This document shows, piece by piece, positions 1 to 64,000 of a DNA stretch of 64,000 nt; the first letter of the stretch is position 1, and each line of letters begins with the position of its first letter. Below the pieces are notes generated by a model, which saw only the letters and a program-made list of their open reading frames with translations, made no database searches and was not told the origin of the DNA. Origin of the DNA: a virus; the IMG/VR virus record IMGVR_UViG_3300027743_000025, positions 1 to 64,000 of that record; one strand, written 5' to 3'. A program made the position numbers and the translations under genes.

Positions 1-13
1 ATCGGGACCTGCT

Positions 14-313
14 GTGAGTGAAGACAACCCGAACGCCGTGGGCGGCTACTGGGAGGACCACAGCAGCCCGACCGAGGGGAAGTGGATCTACACCACGGAG
101 CCATTCGAAGAGATCGCCGTGCTGGATCTTGGCGGTCCCGGTGGTCGCTGGAAGATCATCATGGAAGACTACAACGATGCTCTCCCAGATGCCATACCTC
201 CCATGTCAACCGCTGACCTGAAGCGATTCTCCGAGGGCATCCACTCTCTGGGCTACTACGGCAACATCCAGTGGGCGCGGGATGAGCGCGAGTCCGGAGC
301 CGGTTACATATGA
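14..313 (+). CDS. small hypothetical protein
   Basis: A 99-residue acidic protein read from a GTG start; no known family recognised. Its C-terminal half (a stretch beginning MSTADLKRFSEG and running to a Gly-rich turn) resembles the C-terminal half of the leftward gene at 21985-22263 (LTRQELVEFGEGLAELG), so the two look like members of one small phage family. Its stop overlaps the start of the next ORF (ATATGA), suggesting translational coupling. The upstream part of the operon is outside the window. Confidence 0.65.
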   Translation: MSEDNPNAVGGYWEDHSSPTEGKWIYTTEPFEEIAVLDLGGPGGRWKIIMEDYNDALPDAIPPMSTADLKRFSEGIHSLGYYGNIQWARDERESGAGYI

Positions 314-411
314 GAGAGCCTTGGCTCTGGCTGTGGGCTTATCTGTTCTTCGTCATGCTGCTGGTGCTCACCTCTGCGCTCGAACACCTGCCGTTCCAGC
401 TTTTCCGGTGA
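310..411 (+). CDS. 33-aa single-span membrane peptide
   Basis: A 33-residue ORF starting at ATG 310 inside the stop of the upstream gene (ATGA-type overlap). It has one hydrophobic span (LWLWAYLFFVMLLVL) near the N-terminus and a short polar tail. Too short for normal gene callers, but the overlap and the hydrophobic profile match the many membrane microproteins at 19.1-21.5 kb. Function unknown. Confidence 0.5.
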   Translation: MREPWLWLWAYLFFVMLLVLTSALEHLPFQLFR

Positions 412-496: not shown

Positions 497-1132
497 ATGA
501 ACAAGAACACAAAGGCGGCCGGCATCGGCGTTGCCGCTGGCACCTTCACTGCCGCGCTGTTCGGCGCTGGCTTCGCACTCGGCACCTCAGCCATGGCTGC
601 CCCTGCGCCCGTCGCTGCGCCGGCTCCCGTCGTCCAGCTGGCCTCGGACGGAACCTGCCCGGTTCCCCCCACCCTGACGACGGCGCCGACCAGCGGAAAG
701 CCGGCCCCGGCCGCCCCCACCAAGAAGATCGTCAAGAACGACAACCGGACGTGGAACGACAACCGGAGCTGGACTGACAGCCATGACGTGGTCAACACGA
801 TCACAATCACGGAGACCAAGACCATCATCAAGAACATCAACAACGACACCAGCACCATCACGATCATCAACAACTACCCGGCCCCGGAGCAGCCTCCGGT
901 GACTCCGCCGGTGGAGGAGCCCACTCCCCCGGTTGACACGCCGACCACCCCGCCGGTGGAGGACCCGATCACTCCTCCGGTGGAGGAGCCCACTCCGCCA
1001 GTGACTGAGGAGCCGCCGGCCACCCCGCCGGTTGACAGCGGTCACGACAACAACGGCAGTGGCAACGATGACCGGGGAATCCCGGGCGACACGACCGACC
1101 CCACCCACGGCAACGGTGGCGGCAAGAAGTGA
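497..1132 (+). CDS. secreted proline-rich repeat protein
   Basis: A 211-residue protein with a signal peptide (about residues 1-34, Ala-rich with a cleavage-like AMAA end), an Asn/Asp/Thr/Ile-rich central segment (about 75-128) and a C-terminal region of PPVEEPTPPV-type repeats followed by a Gly/Asp/Asn tail. Low-complexity stalk-like composition suggests a cell-surface or exported extension. It is translationally coupled to the metalloprotease downstream (4-bp overlap). Function not known; export is inferred from the signal peptide only. Confidence 0.75.
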   Translation: MNKNTKAAGIGVAAGTFTAALFGAGFALGTSAMAAPAPVAAPAPVVQLASDGTCPVPPTLTTAPTSGKPAPAAPTKKIVKNDNRTWNDNRSWTDSHDVVNTITITETKTIIKNINNDTSTITIINNYPAPEQPPVTPPVEEPTPPVDTPTTPPVEDPITPPVEEPTPPVTEEPPATPPVDSGHDNNGSGNDDRGIPGDTTDPTHGNGGGKK

Positions 1133-1653
1133 AAATCCGAAACCTTCTCATGACCCTGCCCCTGATCGTCGGCGTCGGACTGGTGGTTGACAGCGCTCCA
1201 GCGGCGGCAGCTGCCAAGCCCCGCGTCGTGTGGGTGTACGTCCAGAACAAGGCCACGGCCACCAAGTACTGGCCGATCCACCGGGCGCTCCAGTTCGTGG
1301 ACAAGTACACGGGCTCAACGTTCCGGTATGGGAAGTGCCACGCTAACGCCAAGTGCATCACGATCAAGGAAGACTGGAAACTTGGTCCCACCTACGCGGG
1401 CATGACTAACTTCCGTGGCCCTTACGTGCAGCTCCGCAACGGGGAAACGGACTGGAGCAACCTCATCCAGCTCCAGCCTCGCCAGCGCTACGCAGATTGG
1501 AACATGCGGTATGACACCGTAATCCATGAGCTAGGCCACGCGATGGGGATCTACCAGCACAACGCCGACTCATCCCGGACCATGTTCTGGATGGTTCGTA
1601 GCAACGCCCCGTCGTTCAGCTGGGCCGAGCAGAAGATCCTTCGTAGGCACTAG
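1129..1653 (+). CDS. secreted zinc metalloprotease (metzincin-like)
   Basis: A 174-residue protein from a GTG start overlapping the upstream stop. It has a signal peptide (about 1-29) and a full HExxHxxGxxH zinc motif: His133, Glu134, His137, Gly140, His144, followed by a Met at 152 that could be a Met-turn. This is the pattern of matrixin-type metzincin peptidases. A paralogue with the motif at the same residue numbers lies at 37535-38074. Probably acts outside the cytoplasm, substrate unknown. Cys70 and Cys76, conserved in the paralogue, may form a disulfide. Confidence 0.8.
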   Translation: MKIRNLLMTLPLIVGVGLVVDSAPAAAAAKPRVVWVYVQNKATATKYWPIHRALQFVDKYTGSTFRYGKCHANAKCITIKEDWKLGPTYAGMTNFRGPYVQLRNGETDWSNLIQLQPRQRYADWNMRYDTVIHELGHAMGIYQHNADSSRTMFWMVRSNAPSFSWAEQKILRRH

Positions 1654-2169: not shown

Positions 2170-2376
2170 ATGCAGAACCTGGCCCACGTGTTCGTTGAGA
2201 AGTCTCAGGAAGAGATCGTGTCAACCATGGTCGCGCTAGCCAACCAGGCTCACGAAACATGGGAGAAAGCCAACCGGGACGGAGCAGCGGCCGGCTACCT
2301 GTTGGCCCTGCACTCTCGCTACCAGGCTTTCCAGATTTGTGCTGAGGTAGCGCAGGGTCTGGGAACCCGCGCATGA
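2170..2376 (+). CDS. small hypothetical, paralogue of 2561-2815
   Basis: 68 residues, acidic helical. The segment KSQEEIVSTMVALANQAHE matches LSQEDIACQLEHLARQAEA of the gene two downstream, so the pair arose by duplication. Overlaps the next start (GCATGA). No functional family recognised. Confidence 0.7.
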   Translation: MQNLAHVFVEKSQEEIVSTMVALANQAHETWEKANRDGAAAGYLLALHSRYQAFQICAEVAQGLGTRA

Positions 2377-2561
2377 GCCAGTGCAAGTCTGAGCTGGTGG
2401 CCCCGTTCTACGGGGTTGACATCGCCCACCAGTGCACCTACGCAGCCAGCGCTCCCCCGCACAAGCACTACTGCGGGTGTGGGTATGAGTGGCGCGATGA
2501 CAACGTCATCACCAACGCGCCCGAGCAGGCAACCGTTACACCCAACACTAGGAGATTCTAA
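2373..2561 (+). CDS. small putative zinc-binding protein
   Basis: 62 residues. A Cys/His-rich core (C..H-K-H-Y-C-G-C-G-Y-E-W) could hold a metal. The same signature (H..H-R-C-K-C-G-Y-L-W) closes the membrane protein at 38891-39121. Start and stop overlap neighbours (ATGA, TAATG), so it is part of a coupled three-gene operon. Confidence 0.65.
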   Translation: MSQCKSELVAPFYGVDIAHQCTYAASAPPHKHYCGCGYEWRDDNVITNAPEQATVTPNTRRF

Positions 2562-3451: not shown

Positions 3452-4900
3452 ATGAAGCGTCGTCTAGCTGACGACAGTGGAGCATCACTCATCATCGCCC
3501 TGATCTTTATCGTGGTTGTGGCCGTGGTGATGGGAGCCATCCTCACTCTTGCAGAGGCGAACCTGAGAACCACCTCGGTTGTGAAGGACCGGGCTGACAA
3601 GGATTACGGCGCCGATGGCGCTGCCAAGATCGCGATCAAGCAACTGGAGAATGACCACTACCTCGGAGGCGACTGCCCCGCGATGAGTGTGCAAGCCGGC
3701 TACGCCGTGCAGTGCGAGGTCGACGAGTTCAACTCCAGCATGGGGGACATCAACACTGTCAACCGGCAGGCAACCGCTCTGCTCGCGCTGGCTCCGGCCG
3801 GACAGGGTCTCTACTTCAACATTCAGGGCAACCCAGCTACACAGTCGATCAAGGTCAAGGGTGGGCTGTTCTCGCACTCTGACTTCGTGGTTGATCACGG
3901 ATGGCTGGACTCTCTCGGCCCGGTAACCGCGCGGGGTGACTGCCTGCTGCTTACTGCGCAGGCCAGGCTCACGGCTCCTAAACAGGACTGCAAGATCGGG
4001 ACCGTGGCCAACAAGCTTGGCAAGGACCCGAACTACTCTGTTCCGGCCGTGACCGGGGACGCCACCGTGCAGCCATGCACCAAGACCAAGAAGACGCCCT
4101 ATGTGGTGACGCCCGGAATTCTCGACGCTACCGACATGATCGCACTGAACAAACTGACCTCCAACCACGCCGACTGCCAGGATGTGGTGATCTGGCTCAA
4201 GCCAGGTGCTTACCAGTTCAACTCGGTATGGGAGATCAAGTCTGGCAAGGTGGTTGGTGGAGGCAGCTCCACACCTCCGGACACTGTGGATCCCAACAAG
4301 CAGGGATACTGCCCTGCGCCCATCCCGCTGGAGGGACAGGAAGCTACGTGGACTCCACCGGCTGCTGGCCTCGGAGTGACGATCACGTTCGGCCCATCGG
4401 CGCAGCTATCCATGGTGCCTACACCCTCCAAGATCACACCCTCCATGGAGCTGTGTGGCAACTACGAGAAGAACAAGCCGCCGATCGTGTTCTATGGTCG
4501 AACCGCTGCGCCGGAGACTCTGGCCATCAAGACAGACCCTAACTCAGACTTCCGCCTGTACGTTCAGGGAACCACGTACCTGCCCACATCCGTGATTGAC
4601 CTCCAGCTCAAGAAGGACGTGCTTCCGTTCTTCCGGTCTGGTATCACGGCTTACCGATTCCGCGTGGATGGCTTGGGCAACGCCAGCTCTGTTGAGCCAC
4701 TGGTGGAGACCCCCGACGCTGAAGGCACCAGCAACTCCGGCATGGTGTGGCTGGAAGTGAGGAGCACCGCTGACAACACCGTGCGGCTGCGGGCCAAGGT
4801 GTATTTCTACATGGCCAAGCAGACCGAGGATGAGCCGCCGGTTCCTATTGACCCGCCGAAGTACGCATCCAAGATCGTCAGCTGGGCAAACCAGCGCTAA
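3452..4900 (+). CDS. PilX-like minor pilin / pilus accessory protein
   Basis: 482 residues. A short charged N-terminus and a Ser-Gly-Ala-Ser followed by a single hydrophobic helix (about residues 11-33) resemble the PilX N-terminal segment of Gram-positive and Gram-negative pilus accessory proteins. The remainder is a long exported region with several Cys residues (for example in the segments GDCLLL, KQDCKIG, ADCQD, GYCPAP and LCGNY) compatible with disulfides. Ribosome site AGAAGGAAA before ATG 3452. Paired with the pilin-like gene upstream; the assignment rests on the N-terminal pattern and context, so it is moderate. Confidence 0.6.
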   Translation: MKRRLADDSGASLIIALIFIVVVAVVMGAILTLAEANLRTTSVVKDRADKDYGADGAAKIAIKQLENDHYLGGDCPAMSVQAGYAVQCEVDEFNSSMGDINTVNRQATALLALAPAGQGLYFNIQGNPATQSIKVKGGLFSHSDFVVDHGWLDSLGPVTARGDCLLLTAQARLTAPKQDCKIGTVANKLGKDPNYSVPAVTGDATVQPCTKTKKTPYVVTPGILDATDMIALNKLTSNHADCQDVVIWLKPGAYQFNSVWEIKSGKVVGGGSSTPPDTVDPNKQGYCPAPIPLEGQEATWTPPAAGLGVTITFGPSAQLSMVPTPSKITPSMELCGNYEKNKPPIVFYGRTAAPETLAIKTDPNSDFRLYVQGTTYLPTSVIDLQLKKDVLPFFRSGITAYRFRVDGLGNASSVEPLVETPDAEGTSNSGMVWLEVRSTADNTVRLRAKVYFYMAKQTEDEPPVPIDPPKYASKIVSWANQR

Positions 4901-4901: not shown

Positions 4902-4953
4902 GGTTGACACAGACAAGGACGGCCGCTCTGGTGGGGCGGCCGTCCTTCTGTGC
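4902..4953 (+). terminator. GGTTGACA site plus bidirectional terminator
   Basis: CGGTTGACA begins directly after the TAA at 4898-4900, then a stem AAGGACGGCCGC (4915-4926)/GCGGCCGTCCTT (4936-4947) flanked by CACAG/CTGTG. It separates two convergent genes and works for both directions. The same stop-CGGTTGACA-terminator order occurs at 16862-16908. Confidence 0.8.
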
Positions 4954-4954: not shown

Positions 4955-5641
4955 CTAGAAGCGGTTCGGGAACCTGTTGATGATGCCGAGAGCGATGATG
5001 TCAGCCATCATCCCGGCGGCGTGGCTTTGCGCCATGTCGTAATCCCGGAGGCTGTCGACGTACTTGCCACCCAGCTCGGCCGTAGCCTCATTGATGGTCT
5101 GGCTGAGATGTACCTGCATGTAGTCGCGCATCGCCTGCTGAGGCCAGCGCTGGGGGTCCAAAGAGGACAGGAAGTCAGCGACCTGGTTGCCGTTGACTCT
5201 CCACGCTGAGATCGCTGCCGTGGTGGCCGGCCCGTTGTTGGCCTTCGCTGCAACCAGGATCGCTACGGCTCCGCCGATGTGGCTCTTGAGGAGCGCTGTC
5301 AACCGGGCACCGTTCAGGTCGCCGTAGAACGGCTTGATGCTGTCGCCGATGTCAACCTGATTCTGGAGCAGCCGAGCGGCCGTCGCGTTGAACCGGGAGT
5401 TCGGCTGAGCCTCGGAGAAGTACTCCACAATGGCCATTCGCGTATAGGCCACGTGGTCAAACCACAGCCTGCGCTGCTGCGCGCGGAATGCGAATTGAGC
5501 GCCGACGTTGCCACTAGGGGCGACGGTCACGTAGACGGTAGGTCCGGGGGTTGGATGCTTGGTGGTGATACTGCACGCCGCCGTGCCGCTGAGCGACACA
5601 GCCAGTACTCCAGCCACAAGCAAGGCTGAAATTCTCTTCAT
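4955..5641 (-). CDS. secreted lipoprotein
   Basis: 228 residues with a basic N-terminus, hydrophobic core and a lipobox ending in Cys23 (GTAAC). The mature part contains conserved-looking segments (LWFDHVAYTR, NQVDIGDSIKPFYG, MADIIALGIINRFP) that I recognise only as a bacterial uncharacterised secreted helical family. Likely anchored on the outer face of the membrane. Ribosome site GGGCAGGAA. Function unknown. Confidence 0.7.
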   Translation of the reverse strand: MKRISALLVAGVLAVSLSGTAACSITTKHPTPGPTVYVTVAPSGNVGAQFAFRAQQRRLWFDHVAYTRMAIVEYFSEAQPNSRFNATAARLLQNQVDIGDSIKPFYGDLNGARLTALLKSHIGGAVAILVAAKANNGPATTAAISAWRVNGNQVADFLSSLDPQRWPQQAMRDYMQVHLSQTINEATAELGGKYVDSLRDYDMAQSHAAGMMADIIALGIINRFPNRF

Positions 5642-5709
5642 GTTCCTGCCCTTTCGTCCGGGTTTCCGGAGCGTATCACGTGGTCTGGGTCACAAAGTAG
5701 CCCCGTTCG

Positions 5710-5738
5710 TTGACACCTGTTGAGAGACGAGCTAGTGT
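5710..5738 (+). promoter_or_regulatory. promoter with tandem GTTGA, leaderless start
   Basis: TTGACA (5710-5715), spacer of 17 bp containing a second GTTGA, TAGTGT (5733-5738), then 7 nt to ATG 5746. No ribosome site can fit, so the mRNA is predicted to be leaderless. Confidence 0.8.
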
Positions 5739-6475: not shown

Positions 6476-6538
6476 CTAGAGGATCGCGATGAGCAGAACA
6501 ACCAAGATCACAATGAGCACTACACCAAGGATCCACAT
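6476..6538 (-). CDS. 20-aa membrane peptide
   Basis: ATG at 6538 lies 8 nt after a strong GGGAGG site and opens a 20-residue peptide made almost entirely of Ile, Leu and Val after the first Met-Trp. The start codon abuts a GGTTGAC site. It is the last gene of the leftward unit 7414-6476. Function unknown; likely inserts in the membrane. Confidence 0.5.
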   Translation of the reverse strand: MWILGVVLIVILVVLLIAIL

Positions 6539-6552
6539 GTCAACCACCTCCC

Positions 6553-6948
6553 TTACTCAGAGATGATCTCCCCGTCAACGATGTTGTCGTCATCCGGGGC
6601 TGGTGGGGCCGGCTCAGCTGCCGGCCGAGCTGCGATCTGTGTCAACCGGTCCCGCAGGGCCGCGATAGCTCCGTCGTTCTGAGGGCCGCTGTCGTCCTGA
6701 TTCTCCACCGGGGCCGCCAGCCGCACGGCCACATCCACCCGCGCGGGCAGGCCCACCCGGTCCAGGACGGCCGTGGCGGCGTTCACCCTGGCCAAGTCGT
6801 TCCGCCCGTTGACCATCACGTCTGTGAGCGTGTCAACCGAGATGCCAGCTGCGCTGGCCAGGTTCAGCCAGGTCTCTCGCACCAGCGCGACCGCCTCGGA
6901 GAAGTTCGTCGGGCGCTGCTGCGGGACAGGTAGGTTATCGGCCGTCAT
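6553..6948 (-). CDS. hypothetical protein with helical N-terminus and acidic tail
   Basis: 131 residues from ATG 6948, which overlaps the upstream stop (ATGA). N-terminal half is helical with a possible HTH-like segment (LVRETWLNLASAAGISVDTLTDV), C-terminus is Pro/Ala-rich then acidic. A DNA-binding role is possible but not demonstrated. Confidence 0.6.
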   Translation of the reverse strand: MTADNLPVPQQRPTNFSEAVALVRETWLNLASAAGISVDTLTDVMVNGRNDLARVNAATAVLDRVGLPARVDVAVRLAAPVENQDDSGPQNDGAIAALRDRLTQIAARPAAEPAPPAPDDDNIVDGEIISE

Positions 6949-7157
6949 GGAAACAGCGTACCGCCAGATGGGGGATGGGGTGGCGTGTCCGGTTCGCACC
7001 AATGCTCCACCACTGCTGCTGAGATCTGCTGCCACATCGGGATCAGCTCGTCGTTCACATCTTCAGCTGTCCGGCTGCCGGTTGCCACGACGATGGCGGC
7101 CGTTGCGCACTTCACCGAGTAGGCGTTCAGCAGGGCGAGGAACTCCGCGCGGGTCAT
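6945..7157 (-). CDS. small hypothetical
   Basis: 70 residues from ATG 7157 within the stop of the preceding gene (ATGA), the start itself preceded by GGTTGAC. Helical N-terminus (TRAEFLALLNAYSVKC), Pro-rich C-terminus. No family recognised. Confidence 0.6.
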   Translation of the reverse strand: MTRAEFLALLNAYSVKCATAAIVVATGSRTAEDVNDELIPMWQQISAAVVEHWCEPDTPPHPPSGGTLFP

Positions 7158-7414
7158 GTCAACCACACTCCCGTTGGCTTGTCCCCGTGGGCGAGCATCG
7201 CCAGGCCCTGGCCGAGGCAGGCCATGTCAACCGCGCTCATGTACACGCCGGGGTAGTCGTCTGTCACCTCTAACCGCCACACGCCGTCGTCGTACTTGGT
7301 AATCCACCAGAGCACGTCCTCAAGTCCCCCGCGCTGGTCAGCGGCGTGGAAGATGTAGCAGGACCGGTTCAGTTTCGTGGTGTGTTCCCAGTAGGGCGGC
7401 TTCAGCTCGGTCAT
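7154..7414 (-). CDS. small hypothetical, probable leaderless start
   Basis: 86 residues, Trp/Tyr-rich (PPYWEHTTK, VLWWITKYDDG). TAGCCT lies exactly 6 nt before ATG 7414, matching the leaderless geometry seen elsewhere, although no convincing -35 is present. First gene of a coupled leftward trio. Confidence 0.6.
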   Translation of the reverse strand: MTELKPPYWEHTTKLNRSCYIFHAADQRGGLEDVLWWITKYDDGVWRLEVTDDYPGVYMSAVDMACLGQGLAMLAHGDKPTGVWLT

Positions 7415-7448
7415 CCCGAGAGGCTAGCACGCGCGGTCGGGTGTGTGG

Positions 7449-7477
7449 TTGACACCTGTTGAGCTGGTGTGTACAGT
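7449..7477 (+). promoter_or_regulatory. promoter with tandem GTTGA, leaderless start
   Basis: TTGACA (7449-7454), 17-bp spacer with second GTTGA, TACAGT (7472-7477), 6 nt, ATG 7484. Confidence 0.85.
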
Positions 7478-10098: not shown

Positions 10099-10148
10099 CT
10101 CGGGTGGCCCAGCTCACAAAATCCAGGGCCAAGGCTTGGCCCTTTTCG

Positions 10149-18548: not shown

Positions 18549-18557
18549 CGCAGGCCA

Positions 18558-50714: not shown

Positions 50715-50715
50715 G

Positions 50716-54164: not shown

Positions 54165-55808
54165 TTACGGGCAGCAGTACCCGGTGTCATCGAGCGGAGA
54201 AGTGATCCACAGTGGCAAGCCCCCGACGCTGGCCACGCTCTCGAAGATCTCGGAGAACTGCATGTAGTCGTTCGTCCGGACCAGCGCTGAATCCCGGATC
54301 AGACCGAGGTCCAGTGTGCCGCCGTCGAGCAGGAGCAGAGATCCCTCAGGGAAGAGAGCCCACTGAACCTGGCTCGGGAAGTCCGGCAGAGGCACCGGGG
54401 TTGCCAGGGTTGCCTCATCGAAGGGAACGTAGAACCCGCCCGGAGGAGCCGTTGTAGCCGCGCCGCCCGCGTCGGCCGCCGGCAGGGAAGCGGTCGGCAT
54501 CCAGGTGTCCAGGGACCACGTCACCGTGATGCCCAGCTCATTGAGGATGCTGTTCAGCTCCGCCTCGGACATCCCGTAGTTGTCGGGAAGCCGGGCCGTC
54601 GAGTTCTCGGCCGTGACGCTGTCAGAGATCATCAGGTCGCGGAACCATGACGGGATGATCGCATGCAGCCGCTCGTTGTTGACCAGCCGGTTGACATCCC
54701 GCAGGTAAGCCGCCGCCCGGTGGATGGTCCGGATGAAGTCCCGGATCGCGCCGTACGCCATGGCCGGGCCGGTGACCAGCTTGGAGAGCGCCTTGATCTG
54801 CGAGAGCAGCACCGCCTCAGCGAACCGCGCCTGCTGAACCCGAAGCATCTCCGTGTTGGCCGTGACCATCTCCGGGAAGATCCGAGACTGGAGCACGCCG
54901 AACTTGATACACATCGTGATGGCCTGAACCTCGGCCGTCTGCTCCGGCGGGCAATCCGCCCGGATGCAGACCTTCCAGGTCAACTCGTCGGCCGGATCGA
55001 CCGCTTCGTCGTCGTCACAGGTCCAGACAGCCACGCCGCCGGTCACGTCCGCGAGCTTTGGACCCTTGAAGTACCGGATGCCACCACGGTCAGCTTGGAA
55101 GCCGGGAAGCGCGCCGCGCACCGGCCGGTCCGTGTCGCCGATCGTGTAGAGGTCGTAACGGGTCTCCAGCGGAGCACAGCAGCCGCCGGCCGCCACGATG
55201 GCTGCCTGGTTGGTCACGGCCTCGATCTTGGCCTTGTTCCCTTCCAGGTCACCCTGGTAGAGGATCCGGTCTTCCGGCGCCTTGGTCTTGATGGAAGCCA
55301 CCACGACCTTCTCGCCATTGCCGCCGCTCAGGCCGTGGAGGGTGCGGATGCGCTTCGTGAAGGCGTCCGCGAAGTCCTTCAGGGTCGGAATTACAGTTCC
55401 AGCCGAGTAACCCGGGATGTCAGCGCCAGCGACCACGGAGGTCGTGGGCGCCGCCGTAACCGGCTCACGGTCACGCGGCACGGTCAGAGCGCCGCCTGCT
55501 GTCTGCTGCTCCACCGGGTCACCTTCCTTAGCTTCGTCGTTGTTGTCTTCAGCAGCTGCGACCAGCTGCGGTTCCATAGCGGCTGGCACCGGAGTCTCAG
55601 CAGCCGGGGCCGCTTCGCTTCCGCCATTTGAGCGCTTCTCCAGCTCACTAGACACCTGGTCCAGCGCGTCAGCGAGAGCAGCCATGCGCACGTCGTCGGC
55701 CGCCTGATCGGCAGCGTCGAATGCCGCTGTGATGTCTGCCTGAAGGCTCGCGAGTTCTTCGTCAGTGAGGTTGGCGATATCTGCGAGCTTCTGAGCGAAC
55801 TCGTCCAT
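54165..55808 (-). CDS. major capsid protein
   Basis: 547 residues from ATG 55808 (GAAGGAGG site; an upstream ATG at 55835 lacks one). N-terminal about 130 residues are helical and acidic, like a scaffolding delta domain; the rest is HK97-type, with IPTLKDFADAFTKRI, an FEAVTNQAAIVAAGGCCAP segment and RDFIRTIHRAAAYLRDVNR. Abundant Cys (CCAP, CDDD, CIRADCPPE, CCP) is noteworthy. The N-terminal domain would be removed by the protease encoded at 56736-59459. Confidence 0.85.
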   Translation of the reverse strand: MDEFAQKLADIANLTDEELASLQADITAAFDAADQAADDVRMAALADALDQVSSELEKRSNGGSEAAPAAETPVPAAMEPQLVAAAEDNNDEAKEGDPVEQQTAGGALTVPRDREPVTAAPTTSVVAGADIPGYSAGTVIPTLKDFADAFTKRIRTLHGLSGGNGEKVVVASIKTKAPEDRILYQGDLEGNKAKIEAVTNQAAIVAAGGCCAPLETRYDLYTIGDTDRPVRGALPGFQADRGGIRYFKGPKLADVTGGVAVWTCDDDEAVDPADELTWKVCIRADCPPEQTAEVQAITMCIKFGVLQSRIFPEMVTANTEMLRVQQARFAEAVLLSQIKALSKLVTGPAMAYGAIRDFIRTIHRAAAYLRDVNRLVNNERLHAIIPSWFRDLMISDSVTAENSTARLPDNYGMSEAELNSILNELGITVTWSLDTWMPTASLPAADAGGAATTAPPGGFYVPFDEATLATPVPLPDFPSQVQWALFPEGSLLLLDGGTLDLGLIRDSALVRTNDYMQFSEIFESVASVGGLPLWITSPLDDTGYCCP

Positions 55809-55957
55809 GAGTCTGTTCCCTCCTTCTTTGGGCACACCTCAGTCAATAGCTGAAGAGTTACGCCCGGTTGGGTAGGAAAGGTCACTACCCGGATGGAGGG
55901 TCACTCGATACCCACAGAGTATGACACAGCGATCTGGGTCACAAGCCACACCCACAG

Positions 55958-55986
55958 TTGACAGTGGTTGACCTGCTGTGTATAGT
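55958..55986 (+). promoter_or_regulatory. promoter with tandem GTTGAC
   Basis: TTGACA (55958-55963), 17-bp spacer with GTTGACC, TATAGT (55981-55986); leader with GAGGAG before ATG 56028. Divergent from the capsid gene. Confidence 0.85.
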
Positions 55987-56027: not shown

Positions 56028-56339
56028 ATGAGTGAGAACAAGATCAACCTAGAGCCCATCCCCACCCAGCTGGACACCAAGCCCCGCCACCGGATCTACT
56101 TCCGCCTCTTCTCCGCTGCCCAGCGTCTCGTCGGCGTGCCCGGCATGTCCCCGGCTCAGCGGATCGAAAACCTTGAGGTCATCCGGGAGAGCCTGCTGGA
56201 TGCACTCGCAATGCTGGAGATCGACATCTCTACCCGCAAGGCTTTGGTTGACATTGAGGCAAACTTCCACACCACTGCGGAGGAGCCCACCCAGACTGTT
56301 GAGGTTGAGGAGACCGATACCCCCGAGTGCCCCGAGTAA
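56028..56339 (+). CDS. acidic hypothetical protein
   Basis: 103 residues, central helical part (RLFSAAQRLVGVPGMSPAQR) and acidic C-terminus. Rightward island inside the leftward structural genes with its own early-type promoter and terminator. Unknown. Confidence 0.65.
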   Translation: MSENKINLEPIPTQLDTKPRHRIYFRLFSAAQRLVGVPGMSPAQRIENLEVIRESLLDALAMLEIDISTRKALVDIEANFHTTAEEPTQTVEVEETDTPECPE

Positions 56340-56426: not shown

Positions 56427-56735
56427 ATGAGACTGAAGTTGCTGTTGGTGGCACTGCCTATACTGCTGCTGGCCAACTGCGCAGCACCGGCTCAGACCTG
56501 GTCTTTCAAGATGCCCAACCTGGTGGGCCAGGATCTGCTTAAGGCCAAGGGTCGGTTGACACAGCTGGGATTCCCCATCGAGAACATCTCGGTATACGCA
56601 GGAGACTCAGTCCACGATCTTGGTGTGGAGTCTCGATGGGTAGTGGAAACACAAGAACCACCGCCCGGGACGGTGGTTCCTGTGTGCGAGGAATGCTACG
56701 TAAGCCTGATCATCATTCCACTGCTGGCGGAGTGA
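56427..56735 (+). CDS. PASTA-domain lipoprotein
   Basis: 102 residues, GGGAGG site. Signal with lipobox Cys18 (LLLANC). One PASTA domain (MPNLVGQDLLKAKGRLTQLGF then ETQEPPPGTVVP) and a Cys pair (CEECYV). PASTA domains bind peptidoglycan precursors. It may modify the infected cell surface, for example superinfection exclusion, but this is inference. Ends 1 bp before the convergent protease stop. Confidence 0.75.
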   Translation: MRLKLLLVALPILLLANCAAPAQTWSFKMPNLVGQDLLKAKGRLTQLGFPIENISVYAGDSVHDLGVESRWVVETQEPPPGTVVPVCEECYVSLIIIPLLAE

Positions 56736-59459
56736 CTACTTGAACGGGGACACGATCTCGTCGTCCTTGAACTTCTTGGCCGCCTTGCTGTACAGGCCAT
56801 TGATCTTAGACTGGATAGTGGCCCGGTCAGCCTGCGGAATGCTGGCCCCGCCCCGTGCACCCTTCAGCGCTGCTGCTGCCGCTGCGAGCCCGGAGTAAAC
56901 GATCTGGAGCTTCCCGTTGACCACGTCAGCGATGGGGAGCTTCCACGATCCCTTGTTGTTCGGGTCAGCTTTGCTGTCGTGGTAGAGGAATCCCTGCGCC
57001 AGCTGCCCCGTGTCATAAGTGCCGTCCGACTTCTTGGCCCTAGCGAACATGCGGTTAGCTGCTGCTGCCCCATCCCACGACCGACCCCTATCAGCAAAAG
57101 GGAGCCCTGAATCACCCCCCGCTGCCGCCGTGACCGGGTGAACCCGGTCGCGCAGCTTCTGGATCCTCAGCTGCTTCGCGGCCTCCCGCGCCCGCTGCAC
57201 AGCCTCCGACGCCGGCTGTTCCACGGGAATGGCCGGCTCAGCCTCAGCCTCTTCTTGCTCGGCCTCCGGTTCGGCCTCCGGGGAAATGATCTCGACTTCG
57301 TCTGTCTCAGGGAGCTGCTCCGGCTCGGCCTCCACTGCTGCCGTTTCAGGCTCCTCCGTGAAGAGAGCCGTCTCCACAGCGGCCAGCCGCTCCAGCACGG
57401 CCGCGTCCGCCGTCATGCTGGCCTTGAGCACCGCGAGGGACCGCGCGCCGGCCGCCACCAGTGCGGTAACCGCGCCACTCGCGACCCTGGCCCGAGCGAT
57501 CGGGAAGCCCGGCACGTTGACCTGGCAGACCGCGACCAGCTCCAGCGAGCCGTTGATGGGCCGCCAGTCCCCCGATGGGGCCGACGCGCGGAGCGAGCGG
57601 ACCTGCTCAGGCTTGATGTCCGGCCGGAGCGCGCCGGCCACCCAGATCCCGAACTTGTCCTCCCCTACCACCACGTCAGCGACCGCGCTGGCCGTGTTGT
57701 CGTAGTGGGCCACGGCGTGCCCAGCGTCCGCATTGAGCGGCGCGTGGCCGCCGGCCAGGGTCAGCTGGCCCACGTTCACGTCCTTGCCGCTGGCCGTGCG
57801 CAGGGTGCCGGTGGTGAAGTAGCTGTAGTTAGACCGGGAGCGCGGCGGCTTGACGCTGCCGGGGAGCCCGATGTGCGCCTGGTGCCAGTCCGCGATGTGG
57901 CCGAAGACTCGGCCGCTGTCGTCGTGGGTCAGCGGTGTCAACCGCTCCAGACCGGGGTTGGCGAACCACTCGTCCGGGGGTGCCACCGGGAACCCGCCGG
58001 CCAGGACGGCGCGCACCAGGCCCACGTCGTCCAGTGCTTCTGTGTAGATGCCGTCCTTCAGCATGTCGACATTCCTTCCGTGATGATCACTCCATGCGCC
58101 GGCCACCAGGGCGGACAGCAGCGCCTGTTCGGTTGACATGGCCGATGCAGCATGGCCCCGGTTCCGGCCTCGGCCCGGCCACTTGCCCAGCACCCTCTTG
58201 TGAAGGTTCGCGCAGTAGCCCTCAGCCCGGCCGGGCATGTACTTGTTGAGCTGGTGGACGCACCGCTTGAAGTCTCCCGGAGCGCCCCACTTGATCTTGG
58301 CAGCACCCTTGCCCTCGGCCCAGTAGCGCCGGAGCTTCTCGGCCCGGGGGTCGGGGGAGACCGCTGCCGTGACCCCGTCTATCTGCGCGATCACGTCAGA
58401 CAGGGCCGGGTCATCCAGCTCTACCAGCGGCGGGGGGTTTACACCCTCCAGCTGCGCCAACAGCTCGGGGTCATCGACCCATGACTTCTGGTCATAGCGC
58501 TGGACTTTCGGCCCCGGCTGGAGCCGGATCAGTGCGATCACCGCGCCGGGGTCCAGGTCATCGACCACAGCGAAGGGGGTCCAGTCTTCCTCGGCCACCG
58601 TGTCAACCGCTGCTGACAGCGGTGAGGCCATCCGGCTGATCCGGGAGCTGATCTTCTCTTGATCAGTCTGCGGGATCTGGAGGCTGGGAAGCAGCTCGGC
58701 AGCAGCAGTGAGGCCAGCCGAGACGATCTGAAGCTCACCGTTGACCACATCAGTGAAAGGAAGGAGCCAGGCCGCCTGCGTCTGCGGGTCCGCGTCAGGA
58801 TCTCGGTAGAGGAATCCCTGGCTGAGCTTGCCCGTGTCGTAGGACCCATCCGTCTTCCTGGCCCGCGAGAACAGCCGGTTGACAGCAGCATCCCCATCCC
58901 ACTTCCGAGCGCGGTCGGCAAACGGAAGGGTGAGGTCGCCGTTCACGGAAGCCAGCAGCGACAGATCCTGGTGCCCGGAATGCCGGAAGGCTGAGGGAGC
59001 CAGCCACGCCTGAGGCGTGTAGCAGCGCAGGGCCAGGCCTTCCGCGCCGGACAGCAGGGCATCCGCGAGGTCCACCGCGTCCGGCATGGTGAGCAGGATC
59101 AGTGGGTCAGAGCCCTCCCAAGGCTCCCAGGCGCCGGCCGCTGTCAGGGTCTCGTAGGATGCCTCTCCCACCCGACGCACCAGCTGCCGATAGAGCATGT
59201 CGTCGGCCGCGTCCGCCGTGGCGTAGAACCCGATATCCTCGCAGTCTGAGTCCGGGCACTCCAGCGTCTCGCGGGCCGGCCGGCTCAGAGCCGAGAGCGC
59301 TGACTCCAGCGTGTCGTCCGCCCACTTCCCGCTGTCACCCCCGGATGCCGAGAGCGCGAGGAGCTGCCACGCGGGCACCTCATGCTGGCTGACTTCGCCG
59401 CGCAGACGCCGGGGAACCGGGTAAGCCTTGTTATATCCACACATGACCAAAGATGTCAT
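56736..59459 (-). CDS. capsid maturation protease with duplicated accessory domain
   Basis: 907 residues. The middle carries the actinophage head protease pattern: GRVFGHIADWHQAHIG, VGQLTLAGGHAPL, AHYDNTASAVADVVVGEDKFGIWVAGALRPDI, LRASAPSGDWR. The module LPFADRxRxWDGxAAxNR ... TGxLxQGFLY ... DVVNGxLQIV occurs twice, at about 173-278 and at the extreme C-terminus (about 785-907). An acidic Pro/Glu segment (about 715-765) separates protease and second copy. Confidence 0.8.
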   Translation of the reverse strand: MTSLVMCGYNKAYPVPRRLRGEVSQHEVPAWQLLALSASGGDSGKWADDTLESALSALSRPARETLECPDSDCEDIGFYATADAADDMLYRQLVRRVGEASYETLTAAGAWEPWEGSDPLILLTMPDAVDLADALLSGAEGLALRCYTPQAWLAPSAFRHSGHQDLSLLASVNGDLTLPFADRARKWDGDAAVNRLFSRARKTDGSYDTGKLSQGFLYRDPDADPQTQAAWLLPFTDVVNGELQIVSAGLTAAAELLPSLQIPQTDQEKISSRISRMASPLSAAVDTVAEEDWTPFAVVDDLDPGAVIALIRLQPGPKVQRYDQKSWVDDPELLAQLEGVNPPPLVELDDPALSDVIAQIDGVTAAVSPDPRAEKLRRYWAEGKGAAKIKWGAPGDFKRCVHQLNKYMPGRAEGYCANLHKRVLGKWPGRGRNRGHAASAMSTEQALLSALVAGAWSDHHGRNVDMLKDGIYTEALDDVGLVRAVLAGGFPVAPPDEWFANPGLERLTPLTHDDSGRVFGHIADWHQAHIGLPGSVKPPRSRSNYSYFTTGTLRTASGKDVNVGQLTLAGGHAPLNADAGHAVAHYDNTASAVADVVVGEDKFGIWVAGALRPDIKPEQVRSLRASAPSGDWRPINGSLELVAVCQVNVPGFPIARARVASGAVTALVAAGARSLAVLKASMTADAAVLERLAAVETALFTEEPETAAVEAEPEQLPETDEVEIISPEAEPEAEQEEAEAEPAIPVEQPASEAVQRAREAAKQLRIQKLRDRVHPVTAAAGGDSGLPFADRGRSWDGAAAANRMFARAKKSDGTYDTGQLAQGFLYHDSKADPNNKGSWKLPIADVVNGKLQIVYSGLAAAAAALKGARGGASIPQADRATIQSKINGLYSKAAKKFKDDEIVSPFK

Positions 59460-62143
59460 GATGCCGCCTCCCAGTGTGCCTCTCTCTGCAACTGCGCTAC
59501 CTGGTCATTAGTGAGAATACGCTGATACTTCGCTCTCACTACCGTGTCCTCGAACGTCGTCTGGTCGACGGAGTTGAAGGCTTCATAGAGCGCGGCATGG
59601 TTATCCATAGTTGGCTCTGTCTTACGAACTGCGAACGTCGCGTTAGCCACTGCTTCCCGGACATCATCGAAAGTCTTGAGGCCGGCCTTGAAGGCATACA
59701 ACATCGCGACCACATGATCGGTCCCGGAGGCAGTGCCGAAGACACCAGCAGCAGCAGCCACCGCGCCGGCCGGAGCAGCTGGAGCAACTGGAGGAACTCC
59801 GATGGCACCCGCGCCGGGCATCTCAGCAGAGTGGTCCAGGAGAGTAGCCGGCTTGGTGGTGTTGTCGTAAGATGCCCAGCGGTCCATATAATCGGCGAGA
59901 TCGTTGAAGTTGATGATGTTCTGGGTAGTGTCTCTCACCCTGTTCTTCTCGATGACCCTTGAGGGAACGTAGCGGCCACCAATGGTGTCATCGCTGTTCG
60001 CATCCCGGAGACGGTCAATACCGCGCCGGTGACGCTCTTGCACCCTCTTCAGGGAAACATCGATAGGAACGTCTACGAAAACTCCATCCACCGCGTAGCC
60101 CAGCTTCCTGAGATCGTCCACATTGACCGGTGGAGGATCACCGCCCATGGTGCCATCGAAGATGACGTTGTAGCCCTCAGCGATCAGTCGAGACTCAAAC
60201 AGCATGGCTAGCCGACTGGACATCTTATGGATCAGGTCGGCCGTCTCCAGCTCTCCCATACCAGGGATATCTGGTGCGTCTCCCCGCTCTGCGATCCTCT
60301 CCTTGAAAAGGTCTGAGTTGATCTGCACCCAGTCCCTGTCTAGGATCTCCTCTCCGCCTACGGCTTCACTCAGGATGGTTGACTTACCCGCCCCCGGCAG
60401 TCCACCCAGGAGCAAAGACTTCCTACCTTGTGGTTTCGGCTTTCCAGCCTTAGTGACGGTCATCTCCGCATGCAGCTCATCAACGAGCTGCTCAAAGTAC
60501 TCTTCTCGCTCGGTAGACCACTGGCCGTTAGAGTCTCTGAACGCATCTTCGTAAGCCAGTCCAGCTGCTCTAGCGTCTGCCAGGGTGTCATCCAGCCACT
60601 TCACATGTGCCTGGTATTCCGCATCAGTGAGCGGAGGCTGGCCCTTCACATTGACGTTGGGGGCCGGAGGCCGGCTAGCGATGAACTCCTGTAGCTTCTG
60701 GTCGTATTGCTCCAGGGAAAGAGTCGGCCGGTAGTTCGGATCAGCCGCTCTAGCTACGTCGACTTCCTCGATCGCGCTCAAGTTCTCAGTGAGGCTGCGG
60801 GGCAGAGTGGCCAACGACTTTGGAGCCATCATCACCTTGTCGTTGATGTCCCCTACCGGGATCACGTCAGGGAATCCGGCTGCCGGGTCTGCGGGTATTG
60901 CATTCCCATCCCGGTCCACGTAGGAGACATGGGCGCCCTGAGGGGTGAGGTTGGTGATCTGGCCCCGGCGCCGATCAGCCGTGCGGCTGGTGATCGGAGC
61001 GTTCTTGTCTGCGAAGACATTCACCAGGCCGAACTTCTCGATGAACGTGCCGTCCTTACCGCGCGGGTGCAGCCACTCTCTCCAGTTGATAGCCGCGATG
61101 ACTGCCGGATGATCCAGCAACCTGTGCTCACGGGACTGCATCATCAAGGATCCGAAGATTCCAACCGGCTCATCCCCATTGATGCACAGCTGCACGTAGT
61201 GCTTCGCGGCGGCCACGACGGCTGCCGCCGCCGTGGCTTCCTCAAAAGGGAGAGTCATCTCCTCGCTGTCAGAGGCGGGGAACTCCGGCAGTGTCTCGGG
61301 AGCGGTTTTGCCGAGCTGCCATTCCTGCGGGATCTTGTCGAGTGCCCCCAGAGCCTTTGCGCGCTTCACCACATACCACCGGCTGTCGGGGTGGGTGATG
61401 GCATAGCGCACAGCCACCGGAAGATCATCCACCCGGTTGACAGACGGGATGTTCGCTCCAGATGCCACTACCGCTTCCTCCGGTTCGCCTACCGCCGGCT
61501 GTGCTTCTCCCGGCATCTCGATAACCTCGGCTTCTTCGCCAAGCAGCTTGGTCGGCAGATCAGCCACGCTAATGGTCTTTCCGCTGGCATCGCCAGCGTC
61601 CCACACTGCCAGAGCGGATGGGGCCACCTGCACCAGGGACATATCGTCCAGCGTTGTGTTGCCCTCGGGGAGTGCGATCCATTCCCCGTCATACCGCACG
61701 AACGGTCCCATGCCAGTCTCGATAATCAGCGTGACGACTGTGTTGTCCGGAGCCACCACAGCGTCCAGTTGGAGTGCCAACATTCCTCCCCTCAAAATGT
61801 GAGCCTCAACCACGGTTAGCGGCTGCGGTACACCAGCGTCTGGAGCCAGAGTGATTGCATCATATGGGTCAAGTGGCCGGATCCGTATTGTCTCATCCGG
61901 AGCTGCCGGGTCAGAGAAGACAGCTGTCGCTGTCAAGACTCCTCCGCCCTCATCAACAGGTTCAGAGATCACTACTCCACGCAGCTCATCCCCTTCGTCC
62001 CACACAAGCATGAGACCGTTTTCGCCAGTTTGTAGCTCCACGTCGGCACCATAACGAACCGAGGTCGTGTCATACGGCGCTGAAGTGATTGGATCAACTC
62101 TGTGGATGATCACCTCAATGACGGCCGGGTTGGGGGCTAGCAT
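59456..62143 (-). CDS. virion-region protein with zeta-toxin-like kinase domain
   Basis: 895 residues. N-terminal about 200 residues beta-rich; centre has the EWLHPRGKDGTFIEKFG motif of phage morphogenesis proteins; then a zeta/UDP-GlcNAc-kinase-like domain: Walker A GLPGAGKST (581-589), INSDLFKE and FDGTMGG (about 662-668), ending in RVRDTTQNIINFN. Ala-rich linker and C-terminal helical domain follow. Possibly a packaged or head-associated protein. Stop overlaps the protease start (ATGA). Confidence 0.7.
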   Translation of the reverse strand: MLAPNPAVIEVIIHRVDPITSAPYDTTSVRYGADVELQTGENGLMLVWDEGDELRGVVISEPVDEGGGVLTATAVFSDPAAPDETIRIRPLDPYDAITLAPDAGVPQPLTVVEAHILRGGMLALQLDAVVAPDNTVVTLIIETGMGPFVRYDGEWIALPEGNTTLDDMSLVQVAPSALAVWDAGDASGKTISVADLPTKLLGEEAEVIEMPGEAQPAVGEPEEAVVASGANIPSVNRVDDLPVAVRYAITHPDSRWYVVKRAKALGALDKIPQEWQLGKTAPETLPEFPASDSEEMTLPFEEATAAAAVVAAAKHYVQLCINGDEPVGIFGSLMMQSREHRLLDHPAVIAAINWREWLHPRGKDGTFIEKFGLVNVFADKNAPITSRTADRRRGQITNLTPQGAHVSYVDRDGNAIPADPAAGFPDVIPVGDINDKVMMAPKSLATLPRSLTENLSAIEEVDVARAADPNYRPTLSLEQYDQKLQEFIASRPPAPNVNVKGQPPLTDAEYQAHVKWLDDTLADARAAGLAYEDAFRDSNGQWSTEREEYFEQLVDELHAEMTVTKAGKPKPQGRKSLLLGGLPGAGKSTILSEAVGGEEILDRDWVQINSDLFKERIAERGDAPDIPGMGELETADLIHKMSSRLAMLFESRLIAEGYNVIFDGTMGGDPPPVNVDDLRKLGYAVDGVFVDVPIDVSLKRVQERHRRGIDRLRDANSDDTIGGRYVPSRVIEKNRVRDTTQNIINFNDLADYMDRWASYDNTTKPATLLDHSAEMPGAGAIGVPPVAPAAPAGAVAAAAGVFGTASGTDHVVAMLYAFKAGLKTFDDVREAVANATFAVRKTEPTMDNHAALYEAFNSVDQTTFEDTVVRAKYQRILTNDQVAQLQREAHWEAAS

Positions 62144-62145
62144 GG

Positions 62146-64000
62146 CTACACCTCATAGCTTTCCGGGAGATCCAGAATGTTCCGGATGTTCGGTGGCAGG
62201 TAGAGGGGTGGCAGGTCGGAAGGCTTCATAGTCTTGGCTACAGCCATGGTGACGATGTACTTCTCAAGTGGAATGCCATTGATCGACACGATTCCCTTGG
62301 CCTTCAGCTTCGCGATAGCCGAGTCAACTTCCTTCTGGCTGGGAACCGCGATCATGGAGGTCTGTTCAGGACTTAGACCACCGCTAATGTAGTAGTCCTT
62401 CACGTTGCCCCAGTTGAGAATGTTCTTGAAGACGTTCTCTTCCCCGTAAGTGGGGTTGCCGAACACGTCTCCCAGGGAGGCTCGCATGTCCCCGATACGC
62501 CCGTAGACAGCCTCAGGACGGTAGTAGGACATGATGCCGCCGCTGACGTAAGAAGCCTGGTCGTTGTGGTCTGGAAGCCTGGTGTAGCTCTTGGCTGAGG
62601 CATAGGCCCCGTGGCCGGCATACCCGCCAGAGTCGGACTGCGCCGACTTCCCTAGACCCTTCCCAGACGGCGCGTACACGGCTCCGTTAAGTCGCTTGTT
62701 CATGGAGTTGACCTGGCCGTACAGAGCCGCCGAGACGACGGTCTCGGCATCGGCTCTACTGCCACCCTTGACTACCAGGTTCATCTTGCTCTTGGCCTTC
62801 ATGGCAGTGATGGCTCGATCCGACCAGAAGAACGACACCTTGCCAATGGACTCATCCACGCCGACCCGCACGTCCTGCCAGCCAAGGTCAGGGATGCCCA
62901 TCTGATCCCCGGCCAGTTTGAAGATCTGCTCATCAGACAGGCCCTGCGTGTTCTCCACATCAGCCTGGTTCCACTTGACCATAGTGGACAGCATGACCCG
63001 AACCTGCTGCTTAGCTGAGGACTGCGTCATGGGGGAGTAGCCACCCAGGCCCAGCTCAGCCAGCGCGGCAGAGAGGTCTGCATCTGTCGCACCCTCAGGC
63101 AGGGATACCGAGGTCATGCCGTAGCGGGAATCGTTCTTGTAGGAACCAGACGGCTCCACCACTTCAATAACAACCCCGTTACTAGCGACCAGGCGCACAT
63201 TGGTGGAGGAACCGAAGTCGCTGAATGCACTCTTGTGAGCCGGCACCGCCTGTCCCGGCTCTACATCCAGTGTCCCGTCCGCGTGCATGGCCGAGAGTCC
63301 GCCGTCATGAGCGATGGTCCAGCCCTTATCCTTGGCCGTTTGGCTCAAGGTGAACTGCCCCGGGCTCAGCACCTTGATCTTGGTGGGATCCCACGTGTTT
63401 ACCGTATAGGTGTGCCCGGATGCCCATGGGGTGGTGACGACATCAGTGCTTCCCAGGCTCTTGAAGGTGACCTTCTTGTTTCCATCCGGCGTGTCCTCGA
63501 CAGCGACCACCTCGAAGTTCGGGGGGTTGCCAGAGTTGTCCGGCCGCCAGGCGCCCTGATTCTCCGGCTTGCTGCTGGCAGACGGCTTAAGAGCGACACG
63601 CTCGCCCACCGCGATGTCTCCGGTGAGCTTCTTGCTGCGTACCCAGTCGCCCTGTTCCTCCATGGCTCCGGTGGCCAGGTTGCTCGCCAGCGTCGCGCGC
63701 TGCTCCTTGGTCAAAGAGAAGATCACCCGGTTGTACTTCTTGCCGGATGGGCCGACTGCGCGGACCGTGACCATCTCGCCGTTCCGGATGCCCGGGACGC
63801 TGGTGACGATCGCCCGCCACTTGCCGTCCTGCAAGGTCTTGCCCAGCGCCTCGGCCGGCGTGTCAACCGCCAGCGCCATGCCCTGCGGGACAACTGACGG
63901 AGGCAGCGGAGCCTTATATGGGGTGTACTCCTCCATGTCCAGCCGGAGTGCCGACACAAGCCGCGTCGACTTCTCGCCAGTGGAGGTCAGGACTACCGCG
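62146..64000 (-). CDS. large structural-region protein, 5' end cut by window
   Basis: At least 603 residues from the GTG at 63957, but the frame stays open to the window edge (ALTSTGEKSTRL-type residues before the GTG), so the true start is probably beyond 64000. Contains GKTLQDGKWRAIVTSVPG, a long middle and LPPLYLPPNIRNILDLPE at the end. Followed 2 bp later by the zeta-domain gene. No family recognised; position suggests a head or portal-associated protein. Confidence 0.6.
   Translation of the reverse strand, partial: AVVLTSTGEKSTRLVSALRLDMEEYTPYKAPLPPSVVPQGMALAVDTPAEALGKTLQDGKWRAIVTSVPGIRNGEMVTVRAVGPSGKKYNRVIFSLTKEQRATLASNLATGAMEEQGDWVRSKKLTGDIAVGERVALKPSASSKPENQGAWRPDNSGNPPNFEVVAVEDTPDGNKKVTFKSLGSTDVVTTPWASGHTYTVNTWDPTKIKVLSPGQFTLSQTAKDKGWTIAHDGGLSAMHADGTLDVEPGQAVPAHKSAFSDFGSSTNVRLVASNGVVIEVVEPSGSYKNDSRYGMTSVSLPEGATDADLSAALAELGLGGYSPMTQSSAKQQVRVMLSTMVKWNQADVENTQGLSDEQIFKLAGDQMGIPDLGWQDVRVGVDESIGKVSFFWSDRAITAMKAKSKMNLVVKGGSRADAETVVSAALYGQVNSMNKRLNGAVYAPSGKGLGKSAQSDSGGYAGHGAYASAKSYTRLPDHNDQASYVSGGIMSYYRPEAVYGRIGDMRASLGDVFGNPTYGEENVFKNILNWGNVKDYYISGGLSPEQTSMIAVPSQKEVDSAIAKLKAKGIVSINGIPLEKYIVTMAVAKTMKPSDLPPLYLPPNIRNILDLPESYEV

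Follow-up and report, generated by a model that had tools for sequence, protein, structure and literature searches.

A dispersed asymmetric word at most permitted synonymous positions in a phage genome, possibly a coverage tag for phage DNA

Published phage stoperators are sites of 13-14 bp that lie in one orientation relative to transcription, either between genes or overlapping gene termini, with about 21-26 sites in a system; the stoperators of cluster A/CA have an asymmetric consensus ending in TGTCAAG and belong to temperate phages with an immunity repressor and an integrase or ParABS, the bound repressor acting as a block to elongation. Bacterial uptake sequences have many copies, often in genes, with no orientation bias, even spacing and few one-mismatch copies (PMC1939737), and HIP1 of cyanobacteria is an 8-mer iterated through the genome, with other words in some relatives (PMC4390886). 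Here we describe a short asymmetric word, GGTTGACA, that is dispersed through positions 1-64000 (the window) of the IMG/VR virus record G000 (hereafter G0; 86,173 bp in all). An initial annotation, made from the letters alone, had pointed to the heptamer GTTGACA in this window and had proposed a stoperator-like silencing system. The tag itself, its saturation at synonymous positions, its conservation, the even spacing without regard to orientation seen in several relatives, and two further dialects of the word are all directly observed.

A word that fills most permitted synonymous positions

GTTGACA occurs 114 times in the window (55 on the plus and 59 on the minus strand), an over-representation stronger than the by-eye estimate of roughly 90. 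The top over-represented 8-mer in Markov tests is GGTTGACA, which has 90 copies in the window (38 plus, 52 minus) where a second-order Markov model predicts 2.6; the whole G0 record holds 109 copies, and a single copy of the reversed control word. Copies with one mismatch exceed expectation just modestly, chiefly at the first base, indicating that the specificity of the word is sharp. The consensus in G0 is YGGTTGACA, and the proposed search for conserved flanks recovered nothing wider. Genes were called in G0 with a simple purpose-built codon model, and the gene numbers used below (63, 75, 76 and 109) follow these calls; 90 of the 109 sites (roughly 83%) lie wholly within called genes, and the densities within and between genes, 1.23/kb and 1.31/kb for the whole of G0, are taken as equal. 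The opposite-strand pair named at the outset is confirmed, both copies lying within the primase/polymerase-like gene at 12619-15282 (marked in Table 1). A literature search on the exact word returned only papers unrelated to phage.

Relatives were pulled from IMG/VR via the capsid protein and, for G30 and G31, via a Sak4-based scan. G2 (86,542 bp; capsid 88% identical), relative to which the G0 record is circularly permuted, has 102 copies of GGTTGACA. Conservation in a related phage, which the initial annotation had put forward as a check, is above background: 54 of 80 G0 sites aligned to G2 are intact, compared with 27% of all aligned 8-mers (81% nucleotide identity), and the base preceding the word is 98% identical between the two. 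Distant members with capsids ~46% identical keep the identical 8-mer, in 28 copies in G3, 79 in G20, 66 in G21 and 59 in G25; G19 and G20 are one phage (100% identity across the shared part) and do not count as independent samples. The sister phages are nearly free of the word, with 1 copy in G24 (84.8 kb), 3 in G5 (107 kb), 3 in G4 (65 kb) and 1 in G27 (41 kb), and no comparable motif of their own was found in G24, G5 or G4, the top word of G24 stemming from collagen-like repeats. Copies are also few in isolates with a related capsid protein: Gordonia Sixama has 1, GMA2 has 3, Arthrobacter Mimi has 22 in 193 kb and Microbacterium Zooman has 32 in 193 kb. The tag follows ancestry in the capsid tree: the motif needs two changes there, as against 9.2 in shuffles, and these can be read as a single gain plus a single loss. 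It is only the isolates with related capsid and polymerase that suggest actinobacterial hosts; a host search with capsid and pilin in genome contigs gave no match.

The initial annotation had argued that codon bias could not explain the motif and had posed a codon-preserving shuffle as a possible refutation of its proposal. When synonymous codons were shuffled within genes (200 shuffles), the 91 in-gene copies of GGTTGACA observed in the whole of G0 compared with 7.3 +/- 2.5 (maximum 14), and the same picture was obtained for G2 and G3, so the argument holds. We define a permitted position as a coding position where the encoded amino acids allow the word; in G0 the word is present at 90 of 142 such positions (63%), as against a mean of 2.9% for permuted words of identical composition. 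Seven motif genomes realise 35-63% of their permitted positions, versus 1-5% in three sister phages, which provide a clean baseline. Codon or amino-acid bias as the cause is ruled out by the codon-preserving shuffles together with the sister phages. Even the amino-acid sequences of G0 seem to have been shifted to accommodate the word, since the 142 permitted positions exceed the 79 from amino-acid shuffles, a comparison that is partly circular in that the real sites themselves add permitted positions.

Spacing, dialects and possible readings

In G3, G20, G21, G25, G19 and G26, the coefficient of variation (CV) of the spacing between sites is 0.49-0.58, versus 0.92-0.98 for random placement (P from 0.0075 to <0.0005; P values here and below are uncorrected for the number of tests, which were picked as the analysis progressed), and the mean gap in the evenly spaced relatives is ~1.1-1.5 kb. 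Same-strand spacing does not surpass the regularity obtained when orientations are shuffled, so that the evenness is independent of strand, and permitted positions in G0 are used alike in the sense (57/91, 63%) and antisense (33/51, 65%) directions, as they are in most relatives. Permitted positions left unused sit closer to existing sites than used ones do. Lost and gained sites tend to neighbour each other in the G0/G2 comparison (P 0.003 to 0.05 at 120-250 bp, by direction) and in G21/G25 (P 0.009 to 0.037); the effect is mostly not significant in other pairs. G22 shows no even-spacing effect, and in a subset test on G21 the regularity of the coding sites alone did not exceed that of sites drawn at random from its permitted positions. 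The best-supported conclusion is that placement follows coverage, not position. We know of no phage system, and found none in the literature searched, that places a recognition word by coverage, unoriented, at most permitted synonymous positions.

The independence from strand bears on a comparison with Chi sites, which act in one orientation. Like Chi, the word is short, over-represented and asymmetric; unlike Chi, its orientation plays no visible role, as judged indirectly from the same-strand spacing. A recombination or anti-exonuclease site of this kind, read by an enzyme of the RecBCD/AddAB type or by the phage's own exonuclease, would suit a word that is short, exact and dispersed, in phages with genes for an exonuclease, Sak4 and SSB, and the circular permutation relative to G2 means that ends could fall anywhere. 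We nevertheless consider it highly improbable, given that it predicts regular same-strand spacing, where the regularity seen is irrespective of strand, and that the motif-less G5 shares the exonuclease, Sak4, SSB, helicase and polymerase families. Orientation-free regularity likewise disfavours lagging-strand-priming sites.

Among distributions described in the literature, bacterial DNA uptake sequences come closest, and HIP1 offers a second parallel. The word resembles the uptake signal sequences and DNA uptake sequences in occurring about once per kb, often within genes and unoriented, with sharp specificity and group-specific words (PMC1939737), and also in its even spacing in several relatives, though this is not significant in the window's own genome; it differs in that those sequences are found in bacterial chromosomes and tied to natural competence, and here the carrier is a phage family with no known uptake function. 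As with HIP1, an iterated 8-mer is swapped for other words in some relatives (PMC4390886); unlike the word described here, which is asymmetric, HIP1 is palindromic and linked to a methyltransferase, and no methyltransferase family was matched in the G0 or G21 protein scans.

Two relatives carry other saturating words. In G30 (a 23 kb fragment, in which the absence of other gene families means little), GAATGACA has 19 copies versus 0.3 expected, and in G31 (93.8 kb) TTTTGAAA has 66 copies versus ~2 expected. The in-gene copies of TTTTGAAA in G31 number 55, compared with 2.9 in codon shuffles, and fill 55 of 93 permitted positions. TTTTGAAA is absent from G0, which has 3 copies of GAATGACA, and both are absent from G5; even spacing is not significant for GAATGACA in G30. 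The three words GGTTGACA, GAATGACA and TTTTGAAA share xxxTGAxA. Such dialects strengthen the case for a dedicated reader protein, since a change of specificity among relatives is what a recognition protein of this kind predicts.

The dialects also bear on whether the host drives the word. Under such an explanation the word would be a DNA-uptake signal of a competent host, or would be read by a host nucleoid or self-recognition factor, and a host switch would lose or change it. The resemblance to bacterial uptake sequences (PMC1939737), the retention of the same 8-mer across capsids ~46% identical and the type IV pilin-like protein encoded by G0 and G2 are consistent with this, and were a host process to read the word, it might point to an uptake or surveillance system so far overlooked in an environmental host, possibly an actinobacterium. 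That close relatives use different words, and that a motif scan found no pilin in G3, G20, G21 or G25, make it quite unlikely in our judgement.

Our preference, which is tentative and held with reservations, is that the genome is tiled with a coverage tag read in double-stranded DNA by one sequence-specific protein, most likely phage-encoded. In this proposal the asymmetric tag YGGTTGACA would be read in double-stranded DNA by a single sequence-specific DNA-binding protein, most likely a phage product, for which genes 76 and 75 (Table 1) are candidates. Selection would act on coverage, such that each stretch of about a kilobase holds at least one tag, in either orientation and inside or outside genes. 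The bound tags would most likely organise, protect or mark the phage DNA along its full length, with compaction, a block to nucleases, or discrimination of phage from host DNA during replication or packaging as possible roles. The protein reader, its phage origin and the effect of its binding are what we infer here. If a phage protein does read the word, a virus would here recognise, organise or protect its DNA by a new route; the set of dialects offers a natural experiment for tracing the reader. A narrower version, in which a phage-encoded protein reads the dialect word about once per kb and so marks phage DNA as distinct from the DNA of the host and of rival phages, is possible but somewhat unlikely; the dialect (GGTTGACA, GAATGACA or TTTTGAAA) would then co-evolve with its reader, as a phage counterpart of bacterial uptake sequences.

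Several observations weigh against the coverage-tag proposal. Spacing is not significantly even in G0 (CV 0.89, P 0.135) or in G2 (CV 0.85, P 0.07), the two genomes in which sites are denser and the evenness effect is weak, nor is it for TTTTGAAA in G31. No gene is perfectly associated with the motif; gene 76 has homologs in three phages in which no motif of this kind turned up, Touem01, DSL-LC01 and G28 (the last a 20 kb fragment), and the case for DNA binding by the gene 76 product is weak, resting on a weak model and non-significant structural matches. The reader may instead be encoded by the host. Finally, related tandem copies occur in promoters, which keeps a regulatory role in play.

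Promoter copies and candidate reader genes

The initial annotation had described the motif as a -35 box repeated within the promoter spacer, and this arrangement recurs in the window and in relatives: within the spacer, 9-10 bp downstream of the initial GTTGACA, lies another GTTGA, and the -10 box stands ~17 bp from the initial copy. The form in the window is GTTGACA-N3-GTTGA-N7-GCTA, with the -35 copy and the spacer copy 10 bp apart, and G20, G21 and G25 together have 26 detected -35 promoters of this type, every one of them tandem. Across six genomes, the leading G is present in 7 of 48 promoter -35 copies versus 435 of 521 other copies (P 1e-22). Because promoter copies mostly do not have the leading G of the dispersed copies, the two are distinct classes of related word, a tandem HGTTGACA and a single YGGTTGACA.

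These promoters provide a link to stoperators, through which a phage regulator bound to the tandem promoter copies and to the single copies would block both initiation and elongation of transcription. As in cluster A/CA, a short asymmetric word is found across a phage genome, contains the -35 hexamer TTGACA (TGTCAA on the other strand) and varies in consensus among groups. The differences are in the word itself (8-9 bp, YGGTTGACA, with TGTCAAG occurring 8 times as against 114 for GTTGACA), in the several-fold greater number of sites, which saturate synonymous positions, and in their location mostly within genes and equally in both orientations. The leading G separates the promoter copies from the dispersed ones, and searches with Pfam and PHROGs in most G0 proteins and 84 G21 proteins detected no integrase, immunity repressor or ParAB, although these scans did not take in some small proteins and could miss a divergent repressor. 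We therefore regard transcription control of this kind as unlikely. Of the original idea of a protein binding genome-wide, sequence-specific recognition at the DNA level is supported; the reading of that protein as a silencing repressor is not.

The existence of two site classes would also suit a titration timer, in which the reader governs the promoters with tandem copies and, in the course of genome replication, is titrated away by the dispersed sites. Titration does not require the even spacing or the local compensation between lost and gained sites, and we hold it to be very unlikely.

Many tandem-copy promoters in G21, G25 (L110-L119) and G20 (L107-L109) have a start codon ~6 nt past the -10 box, which suggests leaderless mRNAs, often beginning ATGACGCAGA; CATGACGCAGA has 11 copies in G21, 11 in G25 and 6 in G20. 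A scan of viral contigs for the promoter pattern returned mostly unrelated promoters rather than dispersed motifs. L056, part of a 67 kb phage contig found by the pattern only, carries several near-identical tandem GTTGACAACTGTTGAC promoter-like elements, and L051, part of a 328 kb contig, carries repeated promoter-like AGTGGTTGACA elements, GTTGACA in that contig being strongly strand-biased (88 forward versus 22 reverse). G5 (L095-L100) has a repeated, possibly start-associated CCGAGCAAAGGA element, with 11-12 copies of its parts.

Three gene families, those of genes 75, 76 and 109, are shared by the five near-complete GGTTGACA genomes and missing from three sisters, and of these gene 76 alone is also found in G30 (18307-18678) and G31 (40162-40467). 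All motif-bearing genomes of a length that allows a call have it; G24, G5 and G4 do not. It has no Pfam match and no convincing PHROG match; the core of its AlphaFold model is moderate to weak, of low confidence (predicted local distance difference test score, pLDDT, ~80), and the top PDB matches, to T4 MotA and LAGLIDADG nucleases, have DNA-binding folds but do not reach significance. The motif-less carriers of its homologs, G28, Touem01 and DSL-LC01, rule it out as a sufficient cause. DSL-LC01 (L171-L177) has over-represented words of its own, with 26 copies of ATTATAAC versus 0.8 expected and 46 of ACTGGTCC versus 4.6.

Gene 75 and the protein at 40138-40413 were the two that the initial annotation had suggested for binding tests, and neither now appears the best candidate. 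The N-domain of gene 75 is found in GGTTGACA-dialect genomes and not in sisters, and the protein has a Pfam zf-C2H2 match and an AlphaFold model (pLDDT 76) in which helix 189-247 is predicted to coil; its zinc-finger region is missing from the motif carriers G3 and G20, and a homolog is found in phage Burro, which has no motif. Neither gene 75 nor gene 109 has a match in G31, which counts against both as the reader. The family of the protein at 40138-40413 is present in two motif-less sisters, and gene 63 is rejected since a homolog is present in motif-less G5.

Table 1. Candidate reader genes, tandem-copy promoters and GGTTGACA sites in the window (sites from the motif count in G0)
Feature	Position	Strand
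Gene 76, orphan family, 190 aa, N-terminal MWI; candidate motif reader	36569..37141	+
Gene 75, HicA-like N-domain, two C2H2/C2HC zinc fingers, long C-terminal helix; second candidate	35773..36519	+
Tandem-copy promoter	5709..5734	+
Tandem-copy promoter	10148..10173	+
Tandem-copy promoter	18193..18218	+
Tandem-copy promoter	24774..24799	+
Tandem-copy promoter, directly upstream of candidate reader gene 76	36505..36530	+
Tandem-copy promoter	55957..55982	+
GGTTGACA site	204..211	-
GGTTGACA site	931..938	+
GGTTGACA site	1030..1037	+
GGTTGACA site	1185..1192	+
GGTTGACA site	2219..2226	-
GGTTGACA site	2414..2421	+
GGTTGACA site	3757..3764	-
GGTTGACA site	4902..4909	+
GGTTGACA site	5297..5304	-
GGTTGACA site	5350..5357	-
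GGTTGACA site	6538..6545	-
GGTTGACA site	6640..6647	-
GGTTGACA site	6831..6838	-
GGTTGACA site	7157..7164	-
GGTTGACA site	7225..7232	-
GGTTGACA site, doubles as -35 of tandem promoter	7447..7454	+
GGTTGACA site	8718..8725	-
GGTTGACA site	8760..8767	-
GGTTGACA site	8993..9000	-
GGTTGACA site	10751..10758	+
GGTTGACA site	10944..10951	+
GGTTGACA site	11363..11370	+
GGTTGACA site	12031..12038	-
GGTTGACA site	12046..12053	-
GGTTGACA site	12360..12367	-
GGTTGACA site	12861..12868	-
GGTTGACA site	14055..14062	-
GGTTGACA site, of named pair	14569..14576	+
GGTTGACA site, of named pair	14832..14839	-
GGTTGACA site	16024..16031	+
GGTTGACA site	16768..16775	-
GGTTGACA site	16897..16904	-
GGTTGACA site, within tandem promoter	18192..18199	+
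GGTTGACA site	18859..18866	-
GGTTGACA site	18994..19001	+
GGTTGACA site	19609..19616	-
GGTTGACA site	19865..19872	-
GGTTGACA site	20165..20172	+
GGTTGACA site	21005..21012	+
GGTTGACA site	21545..21552	-
GGTTGACA site	22143..22150	-
GGTTGACA site	22898..22905	+
GGTTGACA site	23806..23813	+
GGTTGACA site, within tandem promoter	24773..24780	+
GGTTGACA site	25097..25104	-
GGTTGACA site	25733..25740	+
GGTTGACA site	26043..26050	+
GGTTGACA site	26379..26386	+
GGTTGACA site	26614..26621	-
GGTTGACA site	26858..26865	-
GGTTGACA site	28287..28294	-
GGTTGACA site	28512..28519	-
GGTTGACA site	29412..29419	-
GGTTGACA site	30616..30623	-
GGTTGACA site	31450..31457	-
GGTTGACA site	32194..32201	-
GGTTGACA site	32225..32232	-
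GGTTGACA site	32570..32577	+
GGTTGACA site	33160..33167	+
GGTTGACA site	33666..33673	-
GGTTGACA site	34217..34224	-
GGTTGACA site	34340..34347	+
GGTTGACA site	35336..35343	-
GGTTGACA site	36213..36220	+
GGTTGACA site	37617..37624	-
GGTTGACA site	38857..38864	-
GGTTGACA site	39742..39749	-
GGTTGACA site	40731..40738	+
GGTTGACA site	40802..40809	+
GGTTGACA site	42014..42021	-
GGTTGACA site	43029..43036	+
GGTTGACA site	43421..43428	-
GGTTGACA site	45385..45392	-
GGTTGACA site	45761..45768	-
GGTTGACA site	46437..46444	+
GGTTGACA site	47170..47177	-
GGTTGACA site	47523..47530	+
GGTTGACA site	50714..50721	-
GGTTGACA site	51248..51255	+
GGTTGACA site	51879..51886	+
GGTTGACA site	52204..52211	-
GGTTGACA site	54689..54696	+
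GGTTGACA site	56246..56253	+
GGTTGACA site	56554..56561	+
GGTTGACA site	57936..57943	-
GGTTGACA site	58131..58138	+
GGTTGACA site	58601..58608	-
GGTTGACA site	58877..58884	+
GGTTGACA site	61435..61442	+
GGTTGACA site	63861..63868	-

Other genes of the window and its relatives

The primase/polymerase-like gene (minus strand) was probably replaced, because its G2 counterpart is 25% identical amid much flanking DNA that is 70-85% identical. The type IV pilin-like protein (GFTLIELLIVIVILG; Pfam N_methyl, PHROG pilin) is encoded at 3034-3375 (+) and conserved in G2, and the adjoining gene at 3452-4900 (+) encodes a 482-aa protein that is 88% identical in G2 and has no Pfam match. Two small proteins with hydrophobic N-termini, at 1150-1653 (+) and 37535-38074 (+), have weak matches to zinc metalloproteases (matrixin, SprT-like). 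An AMIN-like domain protein is predicted at 9101-9673 (+; E 7e-24), and the gene at 20703-21335 (-) matches the C-terminal domain of the GmrSD restriction endonuclease (E 2e-6). Among the relatives, a G21 protein matches the Acb2/Tad1 hairpin domain, a counter-defence family.

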